Positions 4,074 to 45,225 of a DNA stretch of 64,000 bases are shown here, piece by piece (position 1 is the stretch's first letter; each line of letters opens with the position of its first letter). This DNA comes from Bacilliculturomica massiliensis. GTDB lineage: Bacteria > Bacillota > Clostridia > Peptostreptococcales > Anaerovoracaceae. Under the pieces are notes generated by a model. The model saw nothing but the letters and a program-made list of their open reading frames with translations, ran no database searches and was not told the origin of the DNA. The DNA lies in NCBI RefSeq assembly GCF_900605495.1, contig NZ_LR027603.1, positions 1,303,997 through 1,367,996 of the forward strand. Direction: 5' to 3'. The translations under genes were made by a program, and so were the position numbers.

Positions 4074-4949
4074 ATGAATATGATGACTGTAAAACAAGTC
4101 TCTTTACTGACAGGCGTCAGTGTGCGGACTCTTCAGTTTTATGATGAGATCGGCTTATTTAAGCCAACGCAGATCACCGGCGCCGGCTATCGGATGTATG
4201 ATGAGAACGCGCTGGAAGAACTGCAGCAGATCCTGTTCTTCAAGGAACTGGATTTTACGCTGAAAGAGATCCGGGCGATCATGGATGATCCGGAATTTGA
4301 TAAAACAGCTGCCTTTGAAAAACAGCGCGAGCTGATCCGTATGAAACGAGATCGCCTGGACTCGCTGCTGAGGCTGCTGGAAAAACTGATAAAAGGAGAA
4401 AAATGTATGGATTTTAAAGAATTTGATATGAGCGACTATTTCCGCATTCTGGCTGAATTCAAGATGGAGCACACATCCGCGGTAACAGAGCGGTTCGGAA
4501 GCCTGGAACGCTATGATGAAATGATAGCAGAATTGAAGTCCCATGAGGACGAGATCGCTGAAATGGCAGTCAGACACTATGGCGATCCTGCGCATTTCAC
4601 GAAGGCCATGGAAGACAGCTTACTGGATTTCCTGATCAAGGGTCCGGCTATCTCCCCGGAAAAAGCAGGCGAACTCACGGAACAGACAGATGCGATCACC
4701 AAAAAACTGACCGCTGATCTGAGCAGAGACGCCGCGTCTCCCCAGGTCCAGGCCCTCGTGCGGGAGTTGATCTCCGCAGGCGGCCAGTGGGATGAAGGGA
4801 GCCAAAGCGGTAAAGGCTACTGGTCGTCCATGGCCGGTCTTTATGAGACAAACGCCGCCATGATCCAGGCTGTGGACAGGAAGTACGGAGACGGAGCGGC
4901 TCAGTTTCTCAGTCTTGCTCTGAAGACCTTTCTGATGGATCTAAATTAA
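4074..4949 (+). CDS. MerR-family regulator with TipAS-like effector domain
   Basis: 291-residue transcription factor. Residues about 1-70 are a MerR winged HTH (VKQVSLLTGVSVRTLQFYDE), followed by a coiled-coil dimerisation helix (about 75-110). Residues about 150-290 form the all-helical TipAS antibiotic-recognition domain (conserved acidic stretch SHEDEIAEMAVRHYGD and GQWDEGSQSGKGYW). TipA proteins bind thiopeptide-like or other amphipathic drugs; here the ligand is unknown. An internal RBS and Met (about 4407, AAAAGGAGAAAAATG) could give a short effector-only product, as TipAS is made in tipA, so two products are plausible. Likely autoregulated from the promoter at 3926. Confidence 0.85.
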   Translation: MNMMTVKQVSLLTGVSVRTLQFYDEIGLFKPTQITGAGYRMYDENALEELQQILFFKELDFTLKEIRAIMDDPEFDKTAAFEKQRELIRMKRDRLDSLLRLLEKLIKGEKCMDFKEFDMSDYFRILAEFKMEHTSAVTERFGSLERYDEMIAELKSHEDEIAEMAVRHYGDPAHFTKAMEDSLLDFLIKGPAISPEKAGELTEQTDAITKKLTADLSRDAASPQVQALVRELISAGGQWDEGSQSGKGYWSSMAGLYETNAAMIQAVDRKYGDGAAQFLSLALKTFLMDLN

Positions 4950-4953
4950 CGTG

Positions 4954-5008
4954 AAAGAGCAGACCGGGCCCGCAGGGCAACATGCCAGGCCCGGTCTGCT
5001 CTTTTTAA
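4954..5008. terminator. Bidirectional terminator between merR and the MetH-like genes
   Basis: A 17-bp stem (4954-4970 with 4988-5004) is flanked by A-rich and T-rich tracts (CTCTTTTTAATATT on the plus strand). It lies between convergent genes and can serve both. Confidence 0.85.
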
Positions 5009-5055
5009 TATTAAGAGTGGACCGCCGGCAAAATAAGCTGTGATCGCGGCCAGCG

Positions 5056-5787
5056 CTACGCGTCCCCGCCGCAGCGGAAGCCGCCCCCGGCGCCGGAATC
5101 GTACGCCGACGGGCAGGCAGCCCGCAGTTCACAGTAATCGCACGGTATCATCTCCCGCTGCTCCTTCTCCGCAATGCCGAACAGACCGGTGACCGACTTG
5201 GCCGGAATCATCAGCATGCTCTCCGTCAGCGTCAGTCCGATCTCTTCAGGCCGAAGAAGTTCGAAAGCGGTCTGCTGATTGTGGATATCGAATCCATGCT
5301 GGCCCGGCTCCCACGCTGAAGTAAAACAGAGCCCTTCTTTATTCAGAAGCTCCCGCGCGTAGTCTGACGTGAACGCAGCCGCTCTGGAAGCAAAGGCGCT
5401 GCCCCACGCTTCCAGGAAAAACTGCTCCATCAGATCGCCGCTGGCTTCCAGCAGCTCTCTGAATCCGTTCAGCGTGGCGGCGAACCACACCGCCTCGAAA
5501 CAGTCCCGCATGAGCTCGGTAATAAACGTGCTCCTGACCTCTTCTGTCCTGCCGCCGTCACCCTCCAGAAGGATGCTCTCCTCCCTTATCTCTCTGATTT
5601 TTACGGAACGGACCACTCCCGCAGGCTTCACCGCCTTCATACACGCTTCCCTGGTCTTTTCTACCAGCCCTGCATAGGCTTTCGGCAGTTTATCCATGTT
5701 CACCTGAGCGTGCCTGGCAAACGCCCGGTCCACATCCGTTAATTCCTCCATGGATATCTCAATGATCTTTCTCTGTATGATCGCCAT
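5056..5787 (-). CDS. MetH reactivation-domain-like protein with C-terminal Cys motif
   Basis: 243-residue protein (ATG at 5787 with AAGGAGGG 6 nt upstream). It resembles stand-alone vitamin B12-dependent methionine synthase activation domains: a central segment EAVWFAATLNGFRELLEASG, then ESMLMIPAKSVTGLFGI, the position of the SAM-binding loop in MetH. It ends with CDYCELRAACPSAY, a Cys-x2-Cys-x5-Cys motif seen in short clostridial versions. In MetH this domain binds S-adenosylmethionine for reductive remethylation of cob(II)alamin. It follows a second protein of the same fold (5924-6523), downstream of an mttB-bearing region. The inferred role is reductive reactivation of a corrinoid protein; no methionine synthase catalytic module is present in the window. 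Confidence 0.7.
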   Translation of the reverse strand: MAIIQRKIIEISMEELTDVDRAFARHAQVNMDKLPKAYAGLVEKTREACMKAVKPAGVVRSVKIREIREESILLEGDGGRTEEVRSTFITELMRDCFEAVWFAATLNGFRELLEASGDLMEQFFLEAWGSAFASRAAAFTSDYARELLNKEGLCFTSAWEPGQHGFDIHNQQTAFELLRPEEIGLTLTESMLMIPAKSVTGLFGIAEKEQREMIPCDYCELRAACPSAYDSGAGGGFRCGGDA

Positions 5788-5923
5788 CTTTCCCTCCTTT
5801 TCACCCTTGACCCACATCATCGGATCGCCCGGCGGTCCCGCCCAGACTTTCGCGGACGCCGCCGCCGTCTCTTACCGTTTTCCCGCGTGTCAGCACGTAT
5901 CAGCATGTGTCAGTAGCAGCACC

Positions 5924-6523
5924 TCAATTCTGCTTCGCGTCGGTCCCCCCGTCAAAAAAGATGACTGAGACGGTAAATTCAGGGCTCATGAATCCACTGT
6001 CCGACAACTCCACGCCGATGTCGTCAAATACATTGCCGATGGTCCTGAATAAAAAGCGATTTTCTCTGACCGGAATTTTGTCCGGTATGCCGGGTCTGAG
6101 CCACCGGGGATGGAGATAATTCCATTCTCTGCGCAGAAAATCACAGATCGCGTTCTCCGCTCCCCGCAGCGTGGCGGATTTCAGCGTCCAGAATATCTTC
6201 TCCGACGTGATGGCGCCCACATAATCAATTTCATCGCCGGCGGTAATGATGCCGAGAACGATCTCTCCGCAGCGCGTCAGCGGCCGCAGCATTTCAGTCA
6301 GTTCACCGCTCTCCGGAGACTTGCCGGCCACCAGCAGACCGCAGTCCTTTTCTGCAATGGAGCATCTGCGGATCACAGCCCGCGGCCTGACGCATCTTTC
6401 TGCCAGGGCCAGGGCCATCATCAGCTCGCCGTACTCCTTTGTTCCTTCCAGAATGCCGCTCTCCGCCGAAAGTTTTGCCGGATCATAGCCGATCTCTATT
6501 TTGCTGAATATTTTTCGGTCCAT
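5924..6523 (-). CDS. Second MetH reactivation-domain-like protein
   Basis: 199 residues (ATG at 6523, AGAGGGG upstream; GTG at 6532 is the alternative). The pattern PRAVIRRCSI ... GEIVLGIITAGDEID ... ATLRGAENAICDFL matches the first half of the MetH activation fold (P-x-A, then hydrophobic strand, T-x-G-x-x-I-D, then helix with A-x-x-x-x-A). The C-terminal part is short and lacks the Cys motif of its neighbour. The two tandem genes may be a divided or duplicated activation module acting as a heterodimer. The 136-bp gap before the next gene has no clear terminator. The family assignment is by pattern, not by alignment. Confidence 0.6.
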   Translation of the reverse strand: MDRKIFSKIEIGYDPAKLSAESGILEGTKEYGELMMALALAERCVRPRAVIRRCSIAEKDCGLLVAGKSPESGELTEMLRPLTRCGEIVLGIITAGDEIDYVGAITSEKIFWTLKSATLRGAENAICDFLRREWNYLHPRWLRPGIPDKIPVRENRFLFRTIGNVFDDIGVELSDSGFMSPEFTVSVIFFDGGTDAKQN

Positions 6524-6539
6524 CCGCTTCACCCCTCTG

Positions 6540-7439
6540 TCATCCTTCTGCTTCTTCCTGTTCCTCCTTCGTCCGGTCTGCGGCGATGATCAGCAGCACC
6601 GCGATCATCAGCGCGCTTCCCGTCAGCCCAAGCACCGTTATCCCTTCTCTCAGAATAAAAAGACTGCAGAGCATCGCCGTCACCGGCTCAAAGATGCTCA
6701 GCATGGCCGCGTAGGACGGTCCGATCATGCGGATCGCCAGAGTCATGAAACCGATGCCCACGATGGACAGCAGCGCGATGACGAACACATACCCGTATGC
6801 CTGCCACGGCAGAGAATACAGCTTGAATTGACCGGACGCCGTCCCCTGCACGCCGAACACCGCCACGATCACCACCGACAGATATACCATCAGATTACAG
6901 GCGTCCAGCTCACGCATGCTGCTGCGGTCTACGCTGACCATATAGACCGCGAAGGCTGCGCCGGACAGAAACGCGATGACGGCGCCGAAGGGGTCCAGTT
7001 TCGCTGAATCGGGCACATCCATAAGAAACAGGATGCTGGCACAGGTCAGCAGCAGCGCGGCCGCCTTCCTTCCCGTGAGTTTTTCTCTGAAAAATACGAT
7101 CATATAAAATACGACGATCACCGGATACACACAGTGGATCATGGTAGCCTGTCCCGTGGGCAGAAACCGGTAGGACTCCGTCAGAAGAAAGATGGCCACT
7201 CCGTAGCCTCCCGCCCCGAATAAAAGCAAAGCCAAGAGCTGACGCCTTGAGGGAGCGCGGAGTTTTCTGACCGCCGCCAGATATCCTCCCATGATGACCA
7301 GTACGAAAATGAAACGATACACCAGCAGCGTATTGCTGTTCATCTCATGGATCATTGCCAGACGTGTAAAAAGAGACTGAAGCCCATAGGCCGAAGCTCC
7401 GGTCACAGCCAGCGCGATCCCCTTTGTTTTCTCATTCAT
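6540..7439 (-). CDS. EamA/DMT-family transporter
   Basis: 299-residue integral membrane protein with about ten hydrophobic segments arranged as two EamA repeats (residues about 1-145 and 150-290). It begins MNEKTKGIALAVTGASAYG, and the second repeat contains VIAFLSGAAFAVYMV. GGAGGA lies 8 nt upstream of the ATG. The drug/metabolite transporter family exports or imports amino acids, amines and metabolites. It lies 16 bp upstream of the MetH-like pair and downstream of the sigma-54 activator, so it may export a product of the methyltransferase pathway. The substrate is unknown. Confidence 0.85.
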   Translation of the reverse strand: MNEKTKGIALAVTGASAYGLQSLFTRLAMIHEMNSNTLLVYRFIFVLVIMGGYLAAVRKLRAPSRRQLLALLLFGAGGYGVAIFLLTESYRFLPTGQATMIHCVYPVIVVFYMIVFFREKLTGRKAAALLLTCASILFLMDVPDSAKLDPFGAVIAFLSGAAFAVYMVSVDRSSMRELDACNLMVYLSVVIVAVFGVQGTASGQFKLYSLPWQAYGYVFVIALLSIVGIGFMTLAIRMIGPSYAAMLSIFEPVTAMLCSLFILREGITVLGLTGSALMIAVLLIIAADRTKEEQEEAEG

Positions 7440-7512
7440 GTTCTCATTCCTCCGGCCCTGACTGGGCGGTGGGAGGGCGGCCGCTCACAGATGCGCAGAA
7501 GCAGGTACGGCT

Positions 7513-9243
7513 TCACAGACCGTAGATCTTAATGCGGTAGTAGAGCTTCTGCCGGGACATTCCAAGTTCCCGCGCCGTCCTGGCCACGTTCCCGCCGTTT
7601 CGCTTCAGCGCGCCGACAATCTTGTCTTTTTCCTCTTCCCTGATCTGCTCCAGCAGACCCGGTCCTCCGCTCTCCTCCTGGTTTATGATCCGGTCAGACT
7701 CCACGTCCCCGCTCTCCTCACCGGTGTGGAAGAAATATTCCGGAAGGTGGCGCTGTGCGACGCAGTCTTCATCGCGCCCCACCATATTCATCGCCGCCTC
7801 AAGCACATGGCTCAGCTGTCTCACATTACCCGGCCAGTCCGACTCTACGAAAAGCCTGACCACGTCCGCGTCCAGAGCTCTGACGTTCTTCCCCATCTTT
7901 TCGTTGTAGCGGGCGATGTAGTACTCCGCCAGTACCGGTATGTCGTCCCTGCGCATTCTCAGAGACGGGATCACAATGTAATGGACGGCCAGACGATAAA
8001 ACAGATCCTGACGAATGCGGTTTTCTCTCACCGCGTACACCGGATTTTCATTACAGGACGATATGATGCGGATATCGATGCGAATGGTGTGATTCGAACC
8101 GATACGGGTCACCATGCGCTCTTCCAGTACGCGCAGCAGCTTGGACTGGAGGAGAATGGACATGGAATTGATCTCATCGAGAAAAACGGTTCCCCCGTCG
8201 GCCTCCTCGAAGAGCCCGGCCTTATCCATGGCTCCCGTAAAAGACCCCTTAGTCGTTCCGAACAGAAGGCTTTCCAGCAGCGTTTCAGGGATCGCGGCAC
8301 AGTTGATGGCCAGGAACGGCTTCTCTCTGCGGGAACTGAAATTGTGGATGCTCTGAGCAAACATCTCCTTTCCTGTTCCCGTCTCGCCGATGATCAGAAT
8401 ATTAGAATCATTCTGCGCCGCCATTTTCGCCGTCTGAATACACTTTTCCATATCCGGATTCACATAAATGATATCCGCGAATGTATATCTGGCGTTTTTC
8501 TTCTCATAGTTTGGATCCGCCGCCAGCCTGCGCGCTTTGCCTCCGCTTCCATAATCCTCCTTCAGCAGGTGGAGCACCGCGTTGTAGTCGCGTACGATGG
8601 CGAAGGATCCGAATATTTTGCCGTGATAGAAAAGCGGCACCACGGAGGTGACGCAGTCCACCAGCGTCCCCTTTCTCGTATAATATACCTGGCGCACATT
8701 TTCGATGGGTTCTCTGGTCTTCAGCACGCGAAGCAGCAGGCTGGAGTTTTCATCCAGTGAATAGACATCCTTCGTATGCCGTCCGATCACAGCCTTCGGC
8801 TCGTAGTGATCGATCTTGCCCTGAGCGTCGTTATAGATGATGAGATTTCCGTTCTGATCCACCGCGTGAATGCCGTCCTGACAGTACTGCACCACGTTCT
8901 CCAGGATTTTTTTGCGCATGGTCTCCATGCCCAGCACCTCAAAGATCCACGCTTTCAGCACCGGCCCCCCTTCCGCATCGAGCTTCTGATATTTTACGTT
9001 GATCTGATGATTGTGGACGTCGTAAAAAAACTCCGTGTCCTCGGTGACGCCGTACTGCGCAAATACTTCCCGCAGCTGCTCCGCCACATTCCCCTGGGGA
9101 TCCAGGTCAAAGATCTCCAGGACCCGGGAGTTCGCTTCCATGAGCCGGTCCTTTTCATCCAGCAGGATCAGGCCCTTGTGCCGAAGATCAATAAAATCGA
9201 CCAGCTGTCTTATCAGTCTGTATACCATCTCGTTGTCGCTCAT
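7513..9243 (-). CDS. Sigma-54-dependent transcriptional activator (PAS-AAA-Fis)
   Basis: 576-residue enhancer-binding protein (ATG at 9243 with AAGGAG 7 nt upstream; an upstream in-frame extension lacks an RBS). The N-terminal 270 residues contain two PAS-like sensor segments (LLDEKDRLMEANSRVLEIFD and AVDQNGNLIIYNDAQGKID). The AAA+ domain has Walker A GETGTGKE, the sigma-54 contact loop GSFTGA and Walker B GGTVFLDEI. The C-terminus is a Fis-type HTH (NVARTARELGMSRQKLYYRI). It lies between the BCCT transporter and the EamA gene. The sigma-54 sites at 12737 and 13038 make it the obvious activator of mttB and of the OCD-corrinoid operon. The sensed molecule is probably the methylated substrate or a metabolite of it. 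Confidence 0.93.
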   Translation of the reverse strand: MSDNEMVYRLIRQLVDFIDLRHKGLILLDEKDRLMEANSRVLEIFDLDPQGNVAEQLREVFAQYGVTEDTEFFYDVHNHQINVKYQKLDAEGGPVLKAWIFEVLGMETMRKKILENVVQYCQDGIHAVDQNGNLIIYNDAQGKIDHYEPKAVIGRHTKDVYSLDENSSLLLRVLKTREPIENVRQVYYTRKGTLVDCVTSVVPLFYHGKIFGSFAIVRDYNAVLHLLKEDYGSGGKARRLAADPNYEKKNARYTFADIIYVNPDMEKCIQTAKMAAQNDSNILIIGETGTGKEMFAQSIHNFSSRREKPFLAINCAAIPETLLESLLFGTTKGSFTGAMDKAGLFEEADGGTVFLDEINSMSILLQSKLLRVLEERMVTRIGSNHTIRIDIRIISSCNENPVYAVRENRIRQDLFYRLAVHYIVIPSLRMRRDDIPVLAEYYIARYNEKMGKNVRALDADVVRLFVESDWPGNVRQLSHVLEAAMNMVGRDEDCVAQRHLPEYFFHTGEESGDVESDRIINQEESGGPGLLEQIREEEKDKIVGALKRNGGNVARTARELGMSRQKLYYRIKIYGL

Positions 9244-9383
9244 TCGCTGCTCCTTCCCAAATACCATGTTCATTTCTACGTTTGCCCTCCCCCGGCACGC
9301 TGCGCGCTTCCTCAGGGGAGGGTATATTCCTATGATAGGCAACGATCGCTGCGGACACAAGACTTGACAGCCGCAAATTTTTC

Positions 9384-11054
9384 CTACTCGGCGGCTTTGA
9401 GAGGAGCCTGATCCGCCTCAGAGCCTTCCACCGCCTTGATCTGATCGGGCTTCCTGTCGTAGACAGAGAGATCGCCCCCGCTGTACAGGTCGTATATATC
9501 CAGATGCTTCATGGCTTTGAAATGCGCCGCCATCTGGAAACAGCACACGATGCCGATGGGAAGTCCGCAGACGATGCAGGAGGTCTGCAGCGCCGAGGTC
9601 GCGTCCTCTCCTCCTGTGATCAGGAGTATGTAGGCGGCAAGGGCCATCATCACGCCCCAGAATATGCTGACGATCCGCGGAGGCTTTGCCTCGCCCGTCT
9701 CATCTTCAAATTCTTTCAGGGACATGGCCGCGATGGACATCGTCATGGACTCCGCCAGAGTCACGAATGACAGAATGACGATGACCAGCGCGATGATCTT
9801 CATGATCGCACTGAACGGCAGCTGTTCAAAGAAGGAGTACAGCGCCATGGCCGAGCCCACGTCGACGATATCCTGATAGATCGTGGATCTTCCCAGCATT
9901 TCCAGAATGATGCTGCCGTTTCCGAAGATTCCGAACCATGCAAAGATGAAAATGGACGGCGCGATCAGGTTGACCATGACAAACTCTCTGATGGTCCGTC
10001 CGTAAGCCAGCTTTACGAAGAACAGGCCGCACAGCGGGGCGAAGACAAAGAACCACGTATTGAAAAACACATTGTTCAGACCGATCCACCCCGTCTTCTC
10101 GATGGGATCGAGGAACAGAGACAGATTGACGAAATTCTGAGCGTACCTCCCTATGTTGGTGACCGTGAACTCCAGAACGTTAAAGGGATCGATGGCCAGG
10201 AAGGAAAAGATCAGAACGAAGAAATAAAGCGCGGTATTCAGGTTGCTGACGTAGGTTATTCCTTTGTGCAGGCCGGTTATGCTGGAGATCGTATAAAATG
10301 CCGTCATGATCGCCACGATGATCAGCCAGTTGACCGCGTTGCTGGGGAAGCCCACGATGATATCCAGCCCCTGGGCGATCTGCAGCGTTGCAAAGCCCAG
10401 AGACGTGGCGATTCCGCCGATGATGACGAAGATCGAAAGAGAGTCCACCAGATTGCCGATCCAGCCATAGGTCTTTTCTCCCAGCAGCGGATACAGCGAC
10501 GACGCGATGCGATACTTTTTCTTGCTGTTGTAGATCAGAAATACCAGACACACGCCCACGGCGGTATAGATCGCATAAGGATGAAGCGCCCAGTGCAGAA
10601 GCGTATAATCCATGGATGACAGGATCGCTTCCGGCGACATGGCTTCATAATGGAGAAACGGCGCGGGATTGTGCGCCAGCCACACTGGCTCGTACACGCC
10701 GTAATAATTGATCCCCACCGCAATGCCTGAAGTCAGGGTAATGGCGAACCACACGGCCGTTTTCATCTTCGGCTTGGCGTCAGGTCCTCCCAGACGGATC
10801 TTTCCGTACTTGCTGAACGCCGCCCATAGACAGAAGATAACGGTGAAAAAGGCAAGCGGTGTGATAAACCAGCTGAAGTATTTCGTTACGAAATTCAGCG
10901 CGGCGTTGGCACCGGCTGCAAATTTCTGTGGGAGTATCGCGCCGATCGCTACGAAGATCACCAGCACGATCCCCGAGGGGAAAAGCACCCACTTATTGAC
11001 GATATCGAAGAAACCTTTATTTGTATTGGATAATGTCGGCTGCTGTTTGTTCAT
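9384..11054 (-). CDS. BCCT-family betaine/carnitine/choline-type transporter
   Basis: 556-residue carrier with 12 predicted membrane segments. The BCCT family imports quaternary-ammonium compounds. Recognisable parts are SGIAVGINYYGVYEPVWL (TM3/4 region) and FFNTWFFVFAPLCGLF followed by GRTIREFVM (TM8 and loop). The TM8 aromatic cluster normally rich in Trp keeps only one Trp here, so the substrate-binding box differs from classic glycine-betaine carriers. The ATG at 11054 (GAGG 6 nt upstream) is preferred over a GTG at 11066. It is downstream of mttB, separated by a hairpin at 11119-11148, and probably co-transcribed. The context suggests import of the MttB substrate. Confidence 0.92.
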   Translation of the reverse strand: MNKQQPTLSNTNKGFFDIVNKWVLFPSGIVLVIFVAIGAILPQKFAAGANAALNFVTKYFSWFITPLAFFTVIFCLWAAFSKYGKIRLGGPDAKPKMKTAVWFAITLTSGIAVGINYYGVYEPVWLAHNPAPFLHYEAMSPEAILSSMDYTLLHWALHPYAIYTAVGVCLVFLIYNSKKKYRIASSLYPLLGEKTYGWIGNLVDSLSIFVIIGGIATSLGFATLQIAQGLDIIVGFPSNAVNWLIIVAIMTAFYTISSITGLHKGITYVSNLNTALYFFVLIFSFLAIDPFNVLEFTVTNIGRYAQNFVNLSLFLDPIEKTGWIGLNNVFFNTWFFVFAPLCGLFFVKLAYGRTIREFVMVNLIAPSIFIFAWFGIFGNGSIILEMLGRSTIYQDIVDVGSAMALYSFFEQLPFSAIMKIIALVIVILSFVTLAESMTMSIAAMSLKEFEDETGEAKPPRIVSIFWGVMMALAAYILLITGGEDATSALQTSCIVCGLPIGIVCCFQMAAHFKAMKHLDIYDLYSGGDLSVYDRKPDQIKAVEGSEADQAPLKAAE

Positions 11055-11118
11055 TTCTTTCCTCACTTTCCTACAATGATACGGGTTCTGCCTGTTAGAA
11101 ATGAAAACCAGAATGGAT

Positions 11119-11148
11119 CAATCAGGAAGGCTACCGCCTTCCTGATTG
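11119..11148 (-). terminator. Hairpin between mttB homologue and BCCT gene
   Basis: A perfect 13-bp stem (11119-11131 with 11136-11148) and a 4-nt loop TACC lie in the 154-bp gap. Only a weak T-rich tail follows on the minus strand, so it may act as a partial terminator or a stabilising 3' hairpin that lowers transporter expression relative to mttB. Confidence 0.6.
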
Positions 11149-11208
11149 AAAGTGAAGATGTCATTGTATACCGATAGTACCGTGGTCACCTTCGGCGTCT
11201 GCGGCGTC

Positions 11209-12660
11209 TCAGTATTTTGCGATCAGGTCCTTCAAAATATTGTCGCATTCCCGGACCACATCGTCGGCCAGCTTCTTGGGTTCGTGGGTCTCCAGGATCT
11301 TTTTGACCTTGGCGCTGGCCAGATCCTTCAGTTCCGGCTTGCCGCTGGCTTCCCAATTCGTGTAAACGCTGCGGCTGAACAGTTTGGGCAGCCACCACTC
11401 CGTCTTGAACTTTTCAAACGTCTGACGCTCGGCCAGGAAATTGCCTCCCGGTCCCACGCTCTTGATCACGTCCACGGCCAGAGATTCTTCCGTCACCTCG
11501 ATGCCGCGGATGATCCGCTTGGTCTGACCGATCAGCTCGTCGGCCACCACCAGGGCCTCCAGCGACGTCAGCAGGCCGGATTCCATGTATCCCACGTCAT
11601 GGATCAGATTTCCGCCGTAGAGCGCCGACATCAAAACGCTGGTAGCCATGTCGATCCCGTGCTGCTGATCCAGACACTTGGAATCGGAACAGCCTGCGGT
11701 AGTGAATACCGGCAGATTATAGTACTGCGACATTTTGCTCAGACCGCCCTGCAGCAGGTTGAACTCAGGAGAACCGTATGTGATCTGCATGGTCGCCATA
11801 TCCACGCAGGTACAGACGCCGCCCATGATGTAAGGCGCGCCCTCTCTGATCAGCTGGTTTACCACCAGTCCCGACAGGGATTCGGCCAGCTCCACGACCA
11901 TGGTGCCCGCCAGGGTGACCGGGGCCGTCATGCCGGCCTGCGCCGCCGAGGTGTAGACTGCAGGCAGACCGTGCTCCGCCATGGTCATCATGACGTCAAG
12001 GCCTTCGTTCTCGTGGACCAGCGGAGTGATCGGTTCAGAGTACAGGGAGAAGAACGGCAGTTTCTGCAGTTCCTCCAGACTTCCTCTCACCTTTACGCCC
12101 ATGGCTATCATGGCTTCTACGTTTTCGCGGTTGTACGCCCAGTGGAGGATGGGCTTCGGCGAATTCTCCATCATGGCTTTGAAGCAGTAAACGTCAAGTA
12201 CCTGAGTCTCCACGCCGTCGATCGTGCCGAAATCCATCAGATAATCGATATTGGGCAGCGCGTCCATCACTTTTACCGCCCGGCAGGTGTCGTCATAGGA
12301 AGGAATTTTTCTCTCGCCGGTGTAGGGATCCATGGTATTGATGACGGTGGGGCCCGGGCCGTAATAGAAGCGCTTTCCTCCCAGGATCATCTTGCTCTCC
12401 ATATCCTGAGAATACAGCGTCACCTGGGACGGCGCCGACTTCAGCGCTTTTTCCACCATAGCCGCGGGGAAACGGACCCGTCTGCCGTCAACAAAGGCTC
12501 CGCCCTTTTTCAAAATCTCCAGGGCCTTGTCGTTGTAGACATCCACGCCCACTTCTTTCAGGACCTCAAGAATGGCCTGATGAATCATCGCACACTGTGC
12601 GTCATTAAACACTTCGATTCCCAACTGCTGTCTGCTGGTGTAATTACTCAAATTATCCAT
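11209..12660 (-). CDS. Trimethylamine methyltransferase (MttB) family protein, non-pyrrolysine type
   Basis: 483-residue TIM-barrel methyltransferase of the MttB superfamily, which transfers a methyl group from a quaternary or tertiary amine to a corrinoid protein. Family segments include FYYGPGPTVINTMDPYTGERK, GMTAPVTLAGTMVVELAESL and FTTAGCSDSKCLDQQHG. The last is where true MttB carries pyrrolysine; here the frame is open with no amber codon, so this is the MtgB/MtpB/MtcB-like class acting on betaines. It is transcribed from a sigma-54 site at 12737-12751. BCCT and activator genes follow; the cognate corrinoid protein is divergent at 14228. Candidate substrates are glycine betaine, proline betaine, carnitine or related compounds; sequence alone does not decide. 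Confidence 0.92.
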   Translation of the reverse strand: MDNLSNYTSRQQLGIEVFNDAQCAMIHQAILEVLKEVGVDVYNDKALEILKKGGAFVDGRRVRFPAAMVEKALKSAPSQVTLYSQDMESKMILGGKRFYYGPGPTVINTMDPYTGERKIPSYDDTCRAVKVMDALPNIDYLMDFGTIDGVETQVLDVYCFKAMMENSPKPILHWAYNRENVEAMIAMGVKVRGSLEELQKLPFFSLYSEPITPLVHENEGLDVMMTMAEHGLPAVYTSAAQAGMTAPVTLAGTMVVELAESLSGLVVNQLIREGAPYIMGGVCTCVDMATMQITYGSPEFNLLQGGLSKMSQYYNLPVFTTAGCSDSKCLDQQHGIDMATSVLMSALYGGNLIHDVGYMESGLLTSLEALVVADELIGQTKRIIRGIEVTEESLAVDVIKSVGPGGNFLAERQTFEKFKTEWWLPKLFSRSVYTNWEASGKPELKDLASAKVKKILETHEPKKLADDVVRECDNILKDLIAKY

Positions 12661-12736
12661 CGTACTCTCCTTTTCATTCTACTTCACTCTGCGACTGACG
12701 CCAATGAACCGCATAAACCTTTACTCCGAATTTATC

Positions 12737-12753
12737 GCAATTTTCATGCCATT
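12737..12753 (-). promoter_or_regulatory. Sigma-54 (-24/-12) promoter of the mttB homologue
   Basis: On the minus strand TGGCATGAAAATTGCGA matches TGGCAc-N5-TTGCw, with GG (12749-12750) and GC (12737-12738) exactly 10 nt apart. The predicted start is near 12725, about 65 bp upstream of the mttB ATG. Confidence 0.88.
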
Positions 12754-12884
12754 CTGACGAACCTTAGGATTCTGAATATCGATGAAGGCGCGGATTCCTC
12801 AAAACTGGGCGTTCCTGTCTTACACGCCAGGTCTTCACCGGTCTTTCACCAGAAGATCGCTGCAAGCCGCGCCGCAGCAGGACG

Positions 12885-12921
12885 GTGTAAAAAATGTCTG
12901 ATATTTTTATTTTTCCTACAC
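12885..12921. promoter_or_regulatory. Candidate upstream activator site between divergent sigma-54 promoters
   Basis: A dyad GTGTAAAAAA ... TTTTTCCTACAC lies nearly midway between the two sigma-54 promoters, about 120-170 bp from each, a typical enhancer distance. It is AT-rich and imperfect. Assignment to the activator at 7513-9243 is inference. Confidence 0.35.
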
Positions 12922-13036
12922 TTTTTGTCTTTTTGTACAGTGCTCCCATCGAGACGCGCCCGCCGATCATCTGGAAAAACGGCGGCATTTCATCCTATTA
13001 AATGAAGGGAAAATACTTTTGTCTCACAGCTGCGTT

Positions 13037-13053
13037 CTGGCATGGGAATTGCT
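13037..13053 (+). promoter_or_regulatory. Sigma-54 (-24/-12) promoter of the OCD-corrinoid operon
   Basis: CTGGCATGGGAATTGCT: GG at 13039-13040 and GC at 13051-13052 are separated by 10 nt and the flanking bases match the consensus. The predicted start is near 13064, about 60 bp before the ATG at 13126. Confidence 0.9.
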
Positions 13054-13125
13054 TTATCTTAGTGGCAAGCATAAACCTTAGATCCAACGCGGTATTGTCA
13101 GTATGGAAATCGGGAGGAAAAATAT

Positions 13126-14169
13126 ATGAATTATGATCACGCTTATTTTGAAAAAGACAGAGAACATTTCGCTGAAAAGCTGAACGTGGGAAAGGAGATC
13201 CTGTACATCACCCGTGAAGAATGTGAGAACATCGGCATTACCCGGGACGACGCCCTGAATATCACAAAAAATACGCTGATATCCCACGGCAAAAAAGAGT
13301 ACGAGATGCCCGCGAAGATAGGGATCCATCCCTGGACAGAAGTGTTCTTCCACGCGATGCCTGCCTACGTGCCGGAGCAGCGGGCCCTCGGGTGTAAGTG
13401 GATCGAATGTTTTCCCAACAATCCGAAAAAGTACGATCTTCCTCAGACTACAGGACTGCTTATTCTGAACGACGTTCTCAGCGGTGTTCCTGTGGCCGTT
13501 ATGGATTGTACCTGGCTGACAGCTATGCGGACTCCTGCGGTCACCGTTCTCGCCGCCGCCGCTCTCCATCCAGACGCGGAGAACTTCGGCATGTTCGGCT
13601 GCGGCGTCCAGGGTATGGAGCACGTTCGCTTCGTACCGAAGACCTTAAAGCATCTGAAAAAGATCTACGTATATGACGTAGTGGAAGCGGCCGCCGACAA
13701 TCTCATCAAAACCGTTCAGCCGGAGATCGATGTAGAGATCATAAAAGCCGCGTCGCCTCAGGAGATCGCTGAAAAATGCGAGGTCATGAGTTCCGCTACC
13801 ATCATTCTGAAGGAGCCGCTGTGCGCGGTTAAGGATGAGTGGATCTCCGCGGGTCAGACCATCGTCCCCTGTGATATGAACACCTTCTTCGACCTTAAGA
13901 CACAGTATCGGGCGGACAAATACATCGTGGACAGCGTGGATGAGCATGAACTCTTTGCACAGATGGGCTACTTCCCCGCCGACAAAGGACTTCCTGAAGT
14001 ATATTGCCAGACCGGAGAGATCCTGGCGGGTCTCAAGGAAGGCCGCACTTCAAAGGACGAACTGATCGTCTGCAGCAATATCGGCATGTCCGTCTGCGAC
14101 GTCACCATGGCAAAAGCGATCTTTGACGCCGCCATCGAGAAAGGCGTCGGACAGAAACTGAAGTTATAG
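13126..14169 (+). CDS. Ornithine cyclodeaminase/mu-crystallin family protein
   Basis: 347-residue NAD(P)-dependent protein. The N-terminal half carries VMDCTWLTAMRTPAVTVLAA, matching the family D-x-x-x-L-T-x-x-R-T-x-A signature. The Rossmann fold starts at FGMFGCGVQGMEHV (GxGxQG), and CDMNTFFDL sits where ornithine cyclodeaminase has its catalytic Asp. The family includes ornithine cyclodeaminase, ketimine and pyrroline-carboxylate reductases and opine-like dehydrogenases. The gene is first in a sigma-54-controlled operon with a corrinoid protein, which suggests it processes the demethylated imino or amino acid. GGAGG lies upstream of the ATG. The exact reaction is unknown. Confidence 0.88.
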   Translation: MNYDHAYFEKDREHFAEKLNVGKEILYITREECENIGITRDDALNITKNTLISHGKKEYEMPAKIGIHPWTEVFFHAMPAYVPEQRALGCKWIECFPNNPKKYDLPQTTGLLILNDVLSGVPVAVMDCTWLTAMRTPAVTVLAAAALHPDAENFGMFGCGVQGMEHVRFVPKTLKHLKKIYVYDVVEAAADNLIKTVQPEIDVEIIKAASPQEIAEKCEVMSSATIILKEPLCAVKDEWISAGQTIVPCDMNTFFDLKTQYRADKYIVDSVDEHELFAQMGYFPADKGLPEVYCQTGEILAGLKEGRTSKDELIVCSNIGMSVCDVTMAKAIFDAAIEKGVGQKLKL

Positions 14170-14227
14170 CCGTAAACGTTACATAGTATTCCGGGAATTT
14201 GACGTTTAAAAAAGAGAGGGAAAAATT

Positions 14228-14851
14228 ATGAGTAATTACGCAATTCTTAGCGAGCATGTAGTCAACGGTAATGAGGCCGGCGTCGTCAGCGAAGTAAACG
14301 CTGCGCTGGCAAATAACGCGTCTCCTCTGGAAATCATCAATTCCGGCCTTCTGGCCGGTATGGATGTGGTCAGCGAACAATTTGCAAACGGCGATATGTT
14401 CGTACCCGAAGTTTTGATGTCGGCGAAGGCGATGTACGCCGGCATGGACATCGTAAAACCACTGCTGGGCGAAGGCGACATAGCGTCCCAGGGCACCGTG
14501 GTCATCGGCACAGTCAAAGGCGACCTGCACGACATCGGCAAAAACCTGGTGGTCATGATGATGGAGAGCTCCGGCTTTAAAGTCATCAACCTGGGGACCG
14601 ATACAAAGAAGGAGGATTTCGTGAAGGCTGCCAAGGAGCATAACGCCGATATCGTCGCCATGTCCGCCATGCTGACGACTACCATGGCTTACATGGACGA
14701 GATCATCAAGGCCTGTCAGGAAGCCGGAATCAGCGCGAAATACATGATCGGCGGCGCTCCTGTCACCCCGGCCTATGCGGAGAAGATCGGAGCGGTCTAT
14801 ACTGCCGATGCGGCCGCCGCCGCCGACAGAGCGAAGATCCTGGCCGGTTAG
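14228..14851 (+). CDS. Corrinoid protein of MttC/MtgC type
   Basis: 207-residue methyl carrier. An N-terminal helical cap (about 1-85) is followed by a Rossmann-like cobalamin-binding domain with the lower-axial-ligand motif DLHDIGKNL (D-x-H-x-x-G), then SAMLTTTM and GGAPVTPAYAEKIGA. In these systems it accepts a methyl group on Co(I) from the MttB-type enzyme and passes it to tetrahydrofolate through a second methyltransferase, which is not in this window. It lies 58 bp after the OCD-family gene in the same sigma-54 operon, ending at a strong terminator. Confidence 0.95.
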   Translation: MSNYAILSEHVVNGNEAGVVSEVNAALANNASPLEIINSGLLAGMDVVSEQFANGDMFVPEVLMSAKAMYAGMDIVKPLLGEGDIASQGTVVIGTVKGDLHDIGKNLVVMMMESSGFKVINLGTDTKKEDFVKAAKEHNADIVAMSAMLTTTMAYMDEIIKACQEAGISAKYMIGGAPVTPAYAEKIGAVYTADAAAAADRAKILAG

Positions 14852-14901
14852 CGCTCTTCAAAAACTCAACGAGCCATTTTGTCACTCTAATGTAAATTCC
14901 A

Positions 14902-14941
14902 CCAGAGAGACCCCGCGGAATATTCCGCGGGGTCTCTCTGG
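14902..14941. terminator. 40-bp perfect palindrome, bidirectional terminator
   Basis: A perfect inverted repeat with two 20-nt arms meets at the centre (GGAAT/ATTCC). It is GC-rich and is followed by TTTCTGCCC on the plus strand. It lies between the convergent corrinoid gene and the decarboxylase-fold gene, so it probably ends both transcripts. The absence of a loop is unusual. Confidence 0.75.
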
Positions 14942-14988
14942 TTTCTGCCCTTTCAGCTTTTTCTATTTTAATGCTGCGCTTTCATTCT

Positions 14989-16470
14989 TCAGATGACCAG
15001 CACCGTCTCAAGGGAGAGGTCGGAGGGTCCGTGGAAATGCCGGCCTCCCCTCCTGTAGGTCTCGATGAACGCCCATACCTCCGGGCTGATCCGTTCCCCG
15101 GGATAGATCACGGGTATGCCCGGCGGATAGGGCGCGATCATTTCACCGGCCACCAGTCCTTCCGCCGCGCTCCAGCTCACGCGTTTCTTTTCCGAGAAAT
15201 ACGCCTCCCTGGGAGAAAGCACATACTCCGGCTGAGACGGCAGCGGCGGGATCTGTTCCTTCTCTCCGGCGCGTCCGGCCGTCTCCCTTCTGCCTGCGCA
15301 GTCCGCTGCGATCCGCCGCAGAGCCCCCACCAGTCTGTCCGCATCTTCCCTGTCGTTTGCAAAGGTAAAGATAGCCAGCACGTTTTTATAGTCCGCCAGC
15401 TCCGTATCGCATCCGCCCTGCTCCCACAGCAGCTGCTTCAGATCAAACCCCGTAAGACCCAGCTCCCACGCGCCGAAGGTCAGCCGCGAGGAGTCGAAGC
15501 CGCTCACTCCCGCCTGTCCCACTACCTCTCTGCCCATGCAGCTCATTCCGGGTATTTTCCGGATCTCCTCCCTGGCATACTCCGCCAGCGAGACCGCCTT
15601 TTCCGCCATGGCCGCTCCGGAGAGAGCCAGATCCTGTCTGGCCGCGTCCAGAGAGGTCATAAGAAGATAGGATGGACTGGTGCTCTGTACGAGATGGAGA
15701 TTGGCTCTCATCCGGTCCCGATCCACCCGGTCTCCCCTCACGTGGAGCATGGAGCTCTGAGTCAGAGATCCCGCCACCTTGTGGATGCTCTGCGAGCACA
15801 TATCCGCTCCCTGAGCCAGCGCCCCCGCCGGAAGCAGATCGGAGAAATAGCAGTGAGCGCCGTGGGCCTCGTCCACCAGCAGAAGAGCCCCTCTGTCGTG
15901 ACAGATCCGCCCGATCTCACGGAGGTCGCTGCACAGTCCATAATAAGTAGGACTCACCGCGATCACCGCCCGACAATCCGGATTTTCCCGAAACATGGCC
16001 TCCACCGCTGCCGGCGTAATGCCGCCGTGCAGCCCGCTGCCCGGCAGCAGCTCCGGCATGAAATACACCGGTCTGGCCCCTCCCATGATCAGCCCCATCA
16101 GCATGGATTTATGGGCGTTTCGCGGCACGGCGATCTTCTGCCCTTCAAAAGCTGCGGTCAGTACCATGATCTGATTTCCGCAGGTAGTTCCGTTGACCAG
16201 AAAATGTGTTTCGTCGGCTCCGAATAACCGGGCCGCCAGGCTCTCCGCCTCCCGGATCGCACCTTCCGCGCTGTGCAGATCGTCTGTCAGCGGCGTCTCC
16301 GTCAGATCGAAACGAAAGATAGCGTCGCCCACCAGCTCCCGCCATCTCCCGTTGATCCCTTTCTCATACCTGTGTCCCGGTATGCAGAAATAAGCCGGCC
16401 TGATCCGGTTGTATTCTTCGATGGCCTCCAGCAGAGGCATCTTTTCCTGTAAATATTTCCCGTCTTTCAT
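14989..16470 (-). CDS. Orn/Lys/Arg decarboxylase-family PLP enzyme
   Basis: 493-residue fold-type I PLP enzyme of the clostridial SpeA/Cad-like group. Visible features are FLVNGTTCGNQIM near the phosphate site, LLLVDEAHGAHCYF (Asp and His that hold the pyridine ring) and the Schiff-base lysine in SIHKVAGSLTQSSMLH. The C-terminal third (about 380-493) is the small decarboxylase domain. It lacks the N-terminal wing domain of the long inducible enzymes, as usual for this class. Substrate (arginine, lysine or ornithine) cannot be set by eye. It is monocistronic or followed by the terminator at 14902. Confidence 0.88.
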   Translation of the reverse strand: MKDGKYLQEKMPLLEAIEEYNRIRPAYFCIPGHRYEKGINGRWRELVGDAIFRFDLTETPLTDDLHSAEGAIREAESLAARLFGADETHFLVNGTTCGNQIMVLTAAFEGQKIAVPRNAHKSMLMGLIMGGARPVYFMPELLPGSGLHGGITPAAVEAMFRENPDCRAVIAVSPTYYGLCSDLREIGRICHDRGALLLVDEAHGAHCYFSDLLPAGALAQGADMCSQSIHKVAGSLTQSSMLHVRGDRVDRDRMRANLHLVQSTSPSYLLMTSLDAARQDLALSGAAMAEKAVSLAEYAREEIRKIPGMSCMGREVVGQAGVSGFDSSRLTFGAWELGLTGFDLKQLLWEQGGCDTELADYKNVLAIFTFANDREDADRLVGALRRIAADCAGRRETAGRAGEKEQIPPLPSQPEYVLSPREAYFSEKKRVSWSAAEGLVAGEMIAPYPPGIPVIYPGERISPEVWAFIETYRRGGRHFHGPSDLSLETVLVI

Positions 16471-41914: not shown

Positions 41915-43246
41915 CTATTTCGCTCCGTTGTCCCCGTATTTCTTGTTGAAATAGAAATACAGCGGAATACCTGTGATCGGCACGATCAGCCCCATGACGG
42001 AACCGGATGGATCTTCGATCAGCGAATTGATCAGCAGCCAGGTCGCCCAGAGGAGAGTCAGACCGGGAAGCACCGGGTAGCCCAGGACCTTATACGGTCT
42101 CTTCATATCCGGGCATCTCTTTCTCAGAATGAACAGCGCTAAGATCGCCATGGTATAAAATATGGTCTGAGTAAATACGACCAGAACGGTGATCTGTTCA
42201 AAGGAACCGATAAAAATAACCGCTATGCTGACGATCATCATGGCAAACTGCGCTACCACAGGCGTGTGAAATTTAGGATGGATCGTAGCGAAAACGGCGA
42301 AAAACCTCTTATCCCTTGCCATGGCATAGGTCTCTCTGGGGAAGGCGAGAATGGACCCGTTGGTGGCGCCCAGGATCGAGATCAATATGGCCACGGTGAT
42401 AAAAGCGGCTCCCACCTTTCCAAACAGCAAAACGGACACGCTCGAACCCGGATTTGGATCTGCGGCCATCTCGGACAACGGCAGCAGCTTCATCAGCACA
42501 AAGTTGAACAGAGTGTATATGATGGTTACGCCGCCGATAGCCAGGAACATTGCCTTTGGCAGGTTCCTCTCCGGATCTTTGATCTCTTCCGTGACGAGGG
42601 TCACAGAGCTCCACCCGTCGTACGCCCAAAGCGCGGCCATGACAGCCAGTGCAAAGGTGCTGAAAAAGCTTCTGTCCCCTGCCGCTTCAAAGGTAACCGG
42701 ATTAGCGGCTCCTCCTCCCAGGTGAGAGAGACCAAACACAATGATGACGAAAATCGGCACTAATTTCATCACCATCAGCAGCGACTGAAGCCTGCCGCTG
42801 TTTTTAACGCCCAGCATATTCACCACCGATAACAAAACGATCAGCGCCACGGCCGCCAGCTTGACCCCCATAGCGCTGAGGGGGACAAACACGCTCAAAT
42901 ACGTGGCAAAGCCCAACGCCAAAGCCGAAATGCTGGCAGAACAGCTGATCCAAAAGTCCGTCCAGCCCATCATAAACGCGACCAGGGGGCCGTACGTTCT
43001 TTTCAGATAGACGTAGGCGCCGCCTGCTTCCGGCATGGCCGCTCCCAGTTCCGCGTAGCACAACCCGGCCATCAGGGCGTAGCAGCCGGCAAAGATCCAG
43101 GCGGCCGTGGCGATTCCGATGGAAAATCCCGCCCTTTCAATTACAAAAGAACCTACATAAAATACTCCCGATCCGATCACAATGCCTCCAATGATCGACA
43201 TTGCTCCGAACACTCCGATTTCTTTTTTCAAACCGCTGCCATCCAT
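41915..43246 (-). CDS. APC-family amino acid permease
   Basis: 443 residues with 12 hydrophobic segments, starting GVFGAMSIIGGIVIGSGVFY (TM1 with the unwound GSG motif of APC carriers) and continuing with IATAAWIFAGCYALMAGLCY. Imports amino acids or related compounds by cation coupling. It is 61 bp downstream of the amidohydrolase, and both are probably expressed from the sigma-54 promoter at 44987, suggesting that it takes up the amidohydrolase substrate. Confidence 0.9.
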   Translation of the reverse strand: MDGSGLKKEIGVFGAMSIIGGIVIGSGVFYVGSFVIERAGFSIGIATAAWIFAGCYALMAGLCYAELGAAMPEAGGAYVYLKRTYGPLVAFMMGWTDFWISCSASISALALGFATYLSVFVPLSAMGVKLAAVALIVLLSVVNMLGVKNSGRLQSLLMVMKLVPIFVIIVFGLSHLGGGAANPVTFEAAGDRSFFSTFALAVMAALWAYDGWSSVTLVTEEIKDPERNLPKAMFLAIGGVTIIYTLFNFVLMKLLPLSEMAADPNPGSSVSVLLFGKVGAAFITVAILISILGATNGSILAFPRETYAMARDKRFFAVFATIHPKFHTPVVAQFAMMIVSIAVIFIGSFEQITVLVVFTQTIFYTMAILALFILRKRCPDMKRPYKVLGYPVLPGLTLLWATWLLINSLIEDPSGSVMGLIVPITGIPLYFYFNKKYGDNGAK

Positions 43247-43307: not shown

Positions 43308-44933
43308 CTAACAGCCGCCGTACACGATCTTCCCATCCACGATGGTCTTCAGCACCCTTGTGTCTGGAAGCGTCTCCGGATCTGCGTTGAAAATATCCTG
43401 GGAGAGCACGACCATATCCGCATACTTCCCGATCTCCAGCGTTCCCTTCACCGTCTCCTCAAAAGTAGCGTAGGCGGAGCCCGAGGTGAACATCCTCACA
43501 GCCTCCTTCACAGTGAGCTTCTGCTCCGGCAGCCACCCCTCTTCCGGCAGACCGTCCCAGTTTTTTCTGGTCACGGCCGCGTAGATCCCGTGAATTGGCT
43601 CAAAGGGTTCTACCGGATTGTCAGAGCCCGCCGCGCAGTGGATCCCTCTTTCGAGAAAAGACTTCCAGTTATACGCGTACTGTCCTCTGTCCCGACCTAC
43701 TCTTTCCTCTACGATATCGATATCGGACATAACGAAGCCCAGTTCCAGTCCCGCCACCAGATCGTATGCCTGAAAACGCTCCAGAATCTCTGGATTCGTG
43801 ATCTGGCAATGATCGATCCCAAACCTGTATTGATTCCCCCTGTCTTCCTTCAATACCTCCTCGTAGGCGTCGATCACCATGTTCAGTGCTCTGTCCCCAA
43901 TGGCGTCGCACACAAACTGACACTTGTTTTCATAAGCCAGACGGACCATCTTTTTCAGCTCCTCTGCGGAAAAATAGATCTCCCCCCGATTCCCAGCCTC
44001 ATCGCTGTAATCTTCGTCCATGGCCGCCGTCCTTCCACCGAGAGAACCGTCGGTATCCGTCTTGCACGGACCGATGCGGAAGAAAGGACTCCCATATCCG
44101 GTTCTGTAGCCCTGATCCAGGATCTTCTGGATATCCCCGGCAGTAGGCAGATACATCATCAGACTGACCCGAACAGGCAGCTCTTTTTCGCTGTCCAGCT
44201 GAAAATACGCCTCCAGCACATCCTCCGGCGTTCCGGCTCTCTTGAGTTCAAAATCGTCGGTCTGAACGGAAGTGATCCCCGCCGCCACGTATGCGCTGCA
44301 GGCGCTTAGGATCGATTCCCTGATTTTTTTCACCCCCAGCTTTGGCAGCTTCCCATAGATCAGGTTGATCGCCTCCCCGGTAAAAATTCCTGTGGGGATT
44401 CCGTGTTCATCCGCGATCGCCGTGCCATGTTCCATTTCAGGCTGCGGCTGAAGCAGATCCAGGAGCTCCAACGCCTTTGTATTGGCAATGCACATCTGCC
44501 CGCAGGTTCTCCCCAGCACGATGGGAATTTCTGAAGATATCTGATCCAGCTGCGACCGCTGCGGTATCTCTTTCACATCGAACAGATTCTGATCCCATCC
44601 CCGGCCTTCTACCCACTGACCGTTATCAATGTGTTCCTTTTTTATGTACAGCTTCACCCTGTCCACCAGCTCCTTCAGACTTTTGCATCCGTCCAGATTC
44701 ACCATCCGCTGACTGTAGCCGTAAGACAAAAGATGCATATGGCTGTCGTTGAAGCCGGGTATCACCGTTGCGCCTTTCAGATCTATGATCCTCGTGTCGT
44801 CCGTCCGCATATCGAGAATGTTGTCGGTGGTGTCCAGGGCTCGTATGATACCGCCGTCAACAGCCACCGCTTCATAGACGTCCTCCGCCTGGTTCATGGC
44901 GTATACTCTGCCGTTTATCAACATCATGTCCAT
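43308..44933 (-). CDS. Amidohydrolase family 3 (YtcJ-like)
   Basis: 541-residue metal-dependent hydrolase. The N-terminal beta-sandwich (MDMMLINGRVYAMNQ) leads into the barrel with the HxH metal motif FNDSHMHLLSYG. Further conserved regions are IGPCKTDTDGSLGGRTAAMD and GIHCAAGSDNPVEP. The family includes N-acyl and exo-amide hydrolases with unknown physiological substrates. The ATG at 44933 has GAAAGGAG upstream; an in-frame extension to 45050 lacks an RBS and crosses the promoter. Controlled by the divergent sigma-54 activator. Confidence 0.9.
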   Translation of the reverse strand: MDMMLINGRVYAMNQAEDVYEAVAVDGGIIRALDTTDNILDMRTDDTRIIDLKGATVIPGFNDSHMHLLSYGYSQRMVNLDGCKSLKELVDRVKLYIKKEHIDNGQWVEGRGWDQNLFDVKEIPQRSQLDQISSEIPIVLGRTCGQMCIANTKALELLDLLQPQPEMEHGTAIADEHGIPTGIFTGEAINLIYGKLPKLGVKKIRESILSACSAYVAAGITSVQTDDFELKRAGTPEDVLEAYFQLDSEKELPVRVSLMMYLPTAGDIQKILDQGYRTGYGSPFFRIGPCKTDTDGSLGGRTAAMDEDYSDEAGNRGEIYFSAEELKKMVRLAYENKCQFVCDAIGDRALNMVIDAYEEVLKEDRGNQYRFGIDHCQITNPEILERFQAYDLVAGLELGFVMSDIDIVEERVGRDRGQYAYNWKSFLERGIHCAAGSDNPVEPFEPIHGIYAAVTRKNWDGLPEEGWLPEQKLTVKEAVRMFTSGSAYATFEETVKGTLEIGKYADMVVLSQDIFNADPETLPDTRVLKTIVDGKIVYGGC

Positions 44934-44986
44934 AATCGTTTCTCCTTTCACTTTCTGGTCCCTGTCTTTTCTGCCTTTAGTCATTC

Positions 44987-45001
44987 GCAACTTCCATGCC
45001 A
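44987..45001 (-). promoter_or_regulatory. Sigma-54 promoter of the amidohydrolase-permease operon
   Basis: Minus strand TGGCATGGAAGTTGC with GG (44999-45000) and GC (44987-44988) 10 nt apart. Predicted start near 44975, about 40 bp before the ATG. Confidence 0.88.
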
Positions 45002-45147: not shown

Positions 45148-45225
45148 GACTTTTTTTCTTTCATGGACTACCCTGATATCATCGAGAAAGTTAGGATGAT
45201 TCACAGACAGAGGAGGCATCACAAC

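Follow-up and report, generated by a model that had tools for sequence, protein, structure and literature searches.

The 465-bp region between the mttB and OCD genes described here most probably works as a two-way, activator-dependent switch, in which a single substrate-sensing activator bound at a single enhancer would fire both arms of the island; we put the probability of this reading at about 80%. The window, that is, the whole stretch of 64 kb that was analysed, contains the following genes and hairpins in and around the island:

5056 to 5820, minus strand: protein carrying part of the B12 activation domain of methionine synthase (PF02965, 26.9 bits)
5924 to 6532, minus strand: gene without family match, closely 3' of the EamA gene; possible end of the minus transcript
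6540 to 7439, minus strand: EamA-family transporter (PF00892); next minus-arm gene, kept in orthologous islands
7513 to 9243, minus strand: PAS-AAA-Fis sigma-54 activator (PF00158, PF00989/PF13426, PF02954), 576 aa
9384 to 11066, minus strand: BCCT betaine/carnitine/choline transporter (PF02028, 441.8 bits)
11118 to 11149, minus strand: hairpin lacking a U-run, in the gap from mttB to the BCCT gene (z -3.2)
11209 to 12660, minus strand: MttB-superfamily methyltransferase, 483 aa (PF06253, 315.8 bits; TIGR02369, 425 with a cut-off of 525)
13126 to 14169, plus strand: OCD/mu-crystallin family enzyme (PF02423, 154.6 bits); first plus-arm gene
14228 to 14851, plus strand: corrinoid protein (TIGR02370, 187.8 bits with a cut-off of 215; PF02310 and PF02607); second plus-arm gene
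14901 to 14942, no strand assigned: very strong hairpin ending the plus arm, between convergent genes (MFE -48.9 kcal/mol for 14852-14988, z -7.2)

The methyltransferase is of the non-pyrrolysine kind, as its PF06253 match is free of any in-frame stop or amber codon. Solved structures were rejected as a route to its substrate, giving distant matches only (glycine betaine and trimethylamine methyltransferases). The mttB-BCCT hairpin is seen in three lineages, its stem sequences being unrelated (also in L105 at 9080-9171, minus strand, z -5.0, and in L106 at 10929-11060, plus strand, z -4.8), and it may be an mRNA end or a processing hairpin. Since it lacks a U-run it may protect the mttB message, thereby setting the methyltransferase above the transporter. 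Homologues of the OCD enzyme with 63-72% identity occur in varied contexts that give no hint of a substrate (L033-L037, L042-L044 and L109), and MttB is absent from the stretches examined around them; the OCD enzyme may have a wider role.

Two sites of the sigma-54 type lie in the intergenic region:

12736 to 12751, minus strand: predicted sigma-54 promoter (-24/-12) TGGCATGAAAATTGCG, for mttB and the minus arm; predicted start about 12725
13038 to 13053, plus strand: predicted sigma-54 promoter (-24/-12) TGGCATGGGAATTGCT, for the OCD and corrinoid genes; predicted start about 13064

An earlier note on this DNA had claimed two sigma-54 promoters with exact GG-N10-GC geometry here, and this geometry was confirmed in both TGGCATGAAAATTGCG (minus) and TGGCATGGGAATTGCT (plus), while sequence and comparison support their being sites of the sigma-54 type. 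The orientation given in that note, "face-to-back", has to be corrected, as the sites are divergent (back-to-back) and point away from each other. The consensus TGGCAY...TTGCW fits both with one departure, the final base of the minus site being G where W is expected, and this G in place of A or T counts against our preferred reading. Each site lies upstream of its gene, the distance to the ATG being 75 bases for the minus site (mttB, ATG at 12660) and 72 bases for the plus site (OCD, ATG at 13126), with good ribosome sites at both gene starts (AAAGGAGA and GGGAGGAAA); the predicted starts were placed 12 bases past the -12 GC.

With a score matrix built from consensus frequencies, which is an approximation and has a maximum of 19.3 bits, the plus site scored 17.6 bits and the minus site 15.2 bits. 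Over the 64-kb window the plus site ranked first and the minus site joint second, tied with a sigma-54 site at 44986-45001. It could be argued that the two sites are chance matches or relics and that the arms are transcribed from sigma-70 promoters, an explanation that we consider highly improbable. Single sites of such quality do arise in 64 kb: the pattern search with one mismatch allowed returned 3 in the window where 1.95 are expected, which alone is not significant, so that the weight rests on position and pairing. However, among 2000 dinucleotide shuffles of the 465-bp region one site of at least 15.2 bits was obtained in 5 and two sites in none, and both sites are kept in six islands; a chance origin of the pair was rejected on these two grounds. 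Sigma-70 promoters for both arms were rejected as well, sigma-70-like matches in 4900-15100 showing no excess over shuffles (6 vs 6.5).

The MttB of the island was found in five other genomes with 79-89% identity, all belonging to another family, which includes Eubacterium, and no such MttB was found in the searched genomes from the family or order to which the window belongs; this distribution suggests that the island moved by horizontal transfer. Six islands were thus available, from the present genome, four Eubacterium and one further genome of the Eubacterium family (G706 and L032, Eubacterium callanderi FD, have the same intergenic sites and were counted as one). Since four of the six are closely related, they represent about three independent lineages. 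The gene order EamA-activator-BCCT-MttB / OCD-corrinoid is the same in all six. The comparison of the intergenic region in related genomes, proposed in the earlier note as a check, showed that in every island the DNA between MttB and OCD contains a single strong sigma-54 site for each direction, so both promoter directions are kept in 6/6. The scores of the other five, MttB side first and OCD side second, are 15.4 and 15.4 bits (G663), 19.3 and 16.4 (G707), 19.3 and 19.3 (G708), 18.3 and 19.3 (G706), and 16.6 and 15.4 (G493). Apart from the promoter sites and gene starts, little of the intergenic DNA can be aligned between the window and E. callanderi, and both promoters were kept while their N4 spacers and flanks changed. 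Both promoters are very probably real and common to related bacteria.

In L108, a more distantly related island (43-50% identity), there is a single site of 17.6 bits, with the activator gene divergent from it, and after the promoter the order is BCCT, OCD, MttB, corrinoid, EamA. This island is another layout with the same logic.

Sigma-54 polymerase requires the ATPase of an activator. The PAS-AAA-Fis activator that had been claimed for the island is indeed present, with AAA+ and Fis-type domains found by profile. Its longest ORF opens at TTG 9360, and the likely start is the ATG at 9243, which has AAGGAG ahead of it. Its motifs are intact (Walker A GETGTGKE, GSFTGA and a Fis-type helix-turn-helix, HTH_8), and the recognition-helix region GMSRQKLYY is common to the activators of the window and of Eubacterium. 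The DNA upstream of the activator gene showed no convincing sigma-70 promoter, leaving the first expression of the activator without explanation, a point that counts against the proposed switch. In the G493 island the activator (L106 12794-14569) carries the Walker A sequence GETGTEKE in place of the GETGTGKE found elsewhere, and it is possibly impaired, or the difference may be a sequence error.

Between the promoters two further elements can be proposed:

12884 to 12898, plus strand: candidate shared enhancer (activator site) GGTGTAAAAAATGTC, a conserved 15-base word
12899 to 12944, no strand assigned: stretch rich in A+T that includes a second, weaker half-site CTACACTTTTTGTC, a possible second activator site suggested by sequence inspection

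The first of these falls within 12880-12925, the interval previously named for the activator. Its centre is about 166 bases from the minus predicted start and about 173 from the plus one, and it is the longest word between the promoters that is common to the window and Eubacterium. The exact 15-mer (as reverse complement) is central in the G663 and G706 regions, and 14 bases of it are found in G707 and G708; in these four comparisons a shared word of such length was reached in 1 to 6 of 1000 shuffles. The match in G493 is of 10 bases, which 237 of 1000 shuffles also reach, and is not significant. The 14-base core of GGTGTAAAAAATGTC has a single occurrence in the present genome of 4.5 Mb, and a related word, TGTCAAAAAATGTA, has exactly two exact copies in the 4.4-Mb genome of G663, both within this intergenic region. 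On these grounds GGTGTAAAAAATGTC is likely to be the shared enhancer bound by the activator. The weak word of G493, together with A+T-rich DNA that favours chance words, counts against this.

The 15-mer could instead be a bending or IHF/HU-like element, or the site of another regulator, with the true enhancer elsewhere in the region. This would alter one part of the switch and is compatible with the rest of it. Bends are common between an enhancer and a sigma-54 promoter, and a word as rich in A-tracts as this one would fit such a bend; the degenerate version in G493 agrees with it too. The restriction of exact copies to this locus in the two genomes checked suits a dedicated regulator better, and we regard this alternative as the less likely one.

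Another possibility is that both sigma-54 promoters are real and the arms are uncoordinated, either answering to separate activators or with the resident activator serving one arm. The genome does encode 57 other activators and the window has one clear 15-mer, whereas the Eubacterium regions have several copies of the enhancer word over about 130 bp, which could give each promoter separate sites. Nevertheless six islands keep the activator gene together with those for MttB, BCCT, OCD and the corrinoid protein, L108 has a single promoter for all the enzymes, and the two predicted starts lie at almost the same distance from the enhancer word, so that we consider independent control of the arms improbable.

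The machinery that the switch would require is present. RpoN is encoded by one copy in the genome (PF04552, 208 bits), and a strong sigma-54 activator domain was found in 58 proteins. Genome-wide, the pattern TGGCAYN6TGCW has 63 matches, compared with 26 for the reversed control pattern, and 33 of the 63 lie at most 2 kb from a sigma-54 activator gene, where about 3 would be found for random positions.

The earlier note's reading of coordinated, inducer-dependent control is supported in part. From the sequence we infer the following model of the switch, including its transcription starts, RpoN dependence, 15-mer binding, inducer, looping and read-through. Sigma-54 RNA polymerase would wait at both back-to-back promoters, and a hexamer of the PAS-AAA-Fis activator of the island would bind GGTGTAAAAAATGTC, almost midway between them. 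The PAS domains would sense the inducer, presumably a quaternary amine or a derivative, and the use of ATP would open both promoters; placed between back-to-back promoters, one activator may reach both by looping. The minus arm would then yield the methyltransferase together with the BCCT importer, and also further activator, the read-through into the activator gene giving positive feedback, and the plus arm would yield the OCD enzyme and the corrinoid carrier under the same signal.

Sigma-54 control also appears at other MttB genes. The Eubacterium genome G663 contains 42 MttB genes, and 6 of the 30 that were scanned have a coding-strand site of at least 14 bits within 200 bases upstream, always 55-81 bases ahead of the matched gene start. 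The reversed matrix gave 0 sites as a control, and the coding-region background predicts about 0.14. Three further MttB genes outside those 30 also have a site, which brings the total to at least 9 of 42, and activator genes adjoin most of the G663 MttB genes that have one. In the present genome the other two MttB genes have no sigma-54 site upstream, and general sigma-54 control of all its MttB genes was therefore rejected.

The earlier note had described sigma-54 control of MttB-type betaine systems as a theme not widely described. This was fair and has now been overtaken by two reports of 2025, and such control is also common in Eubacterium. In the betaine cluster of Sporomusa sphaeroides KIAC, reported in August 2025, SigL promoters of the -24/-12 type with mapped starts have the form TGGCA-N6-TTGC, betaine/trimethylamine methyltransferases are among the products, and the cluster is activated specifically under betaine conditions (PMC12456013, mSystems 2025). 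That cluster and the present island both bring together sigma-54 sites, an activator, a betaine transporter and an MttB-type methyltransferase, and its mapped starts may be taken as a parallel that supports our reading. It differs in its size of 58 kb, its grd reductase genes and its organism, and the available part of the report makes no mention of an OCD-type enzyme or of a shared divergent promoter pair (PMC12456013). In the second report MttB (COG5598) is one of the functions enriched in the predicted sigma-54 regulons of the class Clostridia (PMC12316311, PLoS One 2025); it is like our case in placing MttB behind sigma-54 promoters, and differs in being statistical and at the COG level, and the part available describes neither a locus nor an activator or enhancer.

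The PrdR/SigL system of the Clostridioides difficile proline reductase is also similar, in that PrdR is the nearest NCBIfam model for the activator (NF041552, 354 bits) and SigL promoters adjoin their activator genes. However, the score falls far short of the 795 bits required for PrdR, and identity of the activator with PrdR was rejected on this ground; the pathway is also another one. In Eubacterium limosum, the enzymes MtpB, MtcB and MtyB share with the present system the demethylation of quaternary amines by the MttB superfamily, and each is induced only by its own substrate; the available part of that report describes no regulator (PMC8604678), and the present MttB is not known as one of the three. 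The main text of Nie 2019 makes no mention of methyltransferase or glycine betaine, and in the available part of the E. limosum primary transcriptome rpoN is named and housekeeping motifs alone are reported.

Because sigma-54 control of betaine genes was reported in 2025, the locus is a well-supported new example of a kind of system already known. The present analysis adds a divergent pair that is conserved at an MttB island with a linked OCD gene, the candidate shared enhancer and the Eubacterium count, in which the genes lying directly behind sigma-54 promoters point to where substrate specificity may be read. The locus may help to show on which substrates orphan MttB enzymes act; these enzymes matter for gut trimethylamine formation. 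We are tempted to propose, as a tentative idea that is possible rather than probable, that one activator, one enhancer word and one MttB system form the general switch behind strictly substrate-specific MttB induction in Eubacterium-type acetogens, and that the OCD-linked form moves horizontally as a self-regulated package serving an amine whose demethylation is not yet known. If this were true, enhancer words and PAS domains would sort many orphan MttB genes by inducer.

With 58 activator domains in 4.5 Mb, the present genome (G000) is unusually rich in sigma-54 systems, its relatives being mostly of about 1.5-2.5 Mb. The window itself contains a second sigma-54 unit, whose site TGGCATGGAAGTTGCG (44986-45001, minus strand, 15.2 bits) lies upstream of the gene for an amidohydrolase (PF07969), with an amino-acid permease gene next in line. 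Beside it a sigma-54 activator gene runs in the divergent direction, and the genes of this unit are at 43308-44933 (minus), 41915-43246 (minus) and 45163-46716 (plus). A second divergent sigma-54 pair was also observed in a Eubacterium genome (L132 10657-10860); it separates a BCCT gene from another MttB gene and has an activator gene close by.
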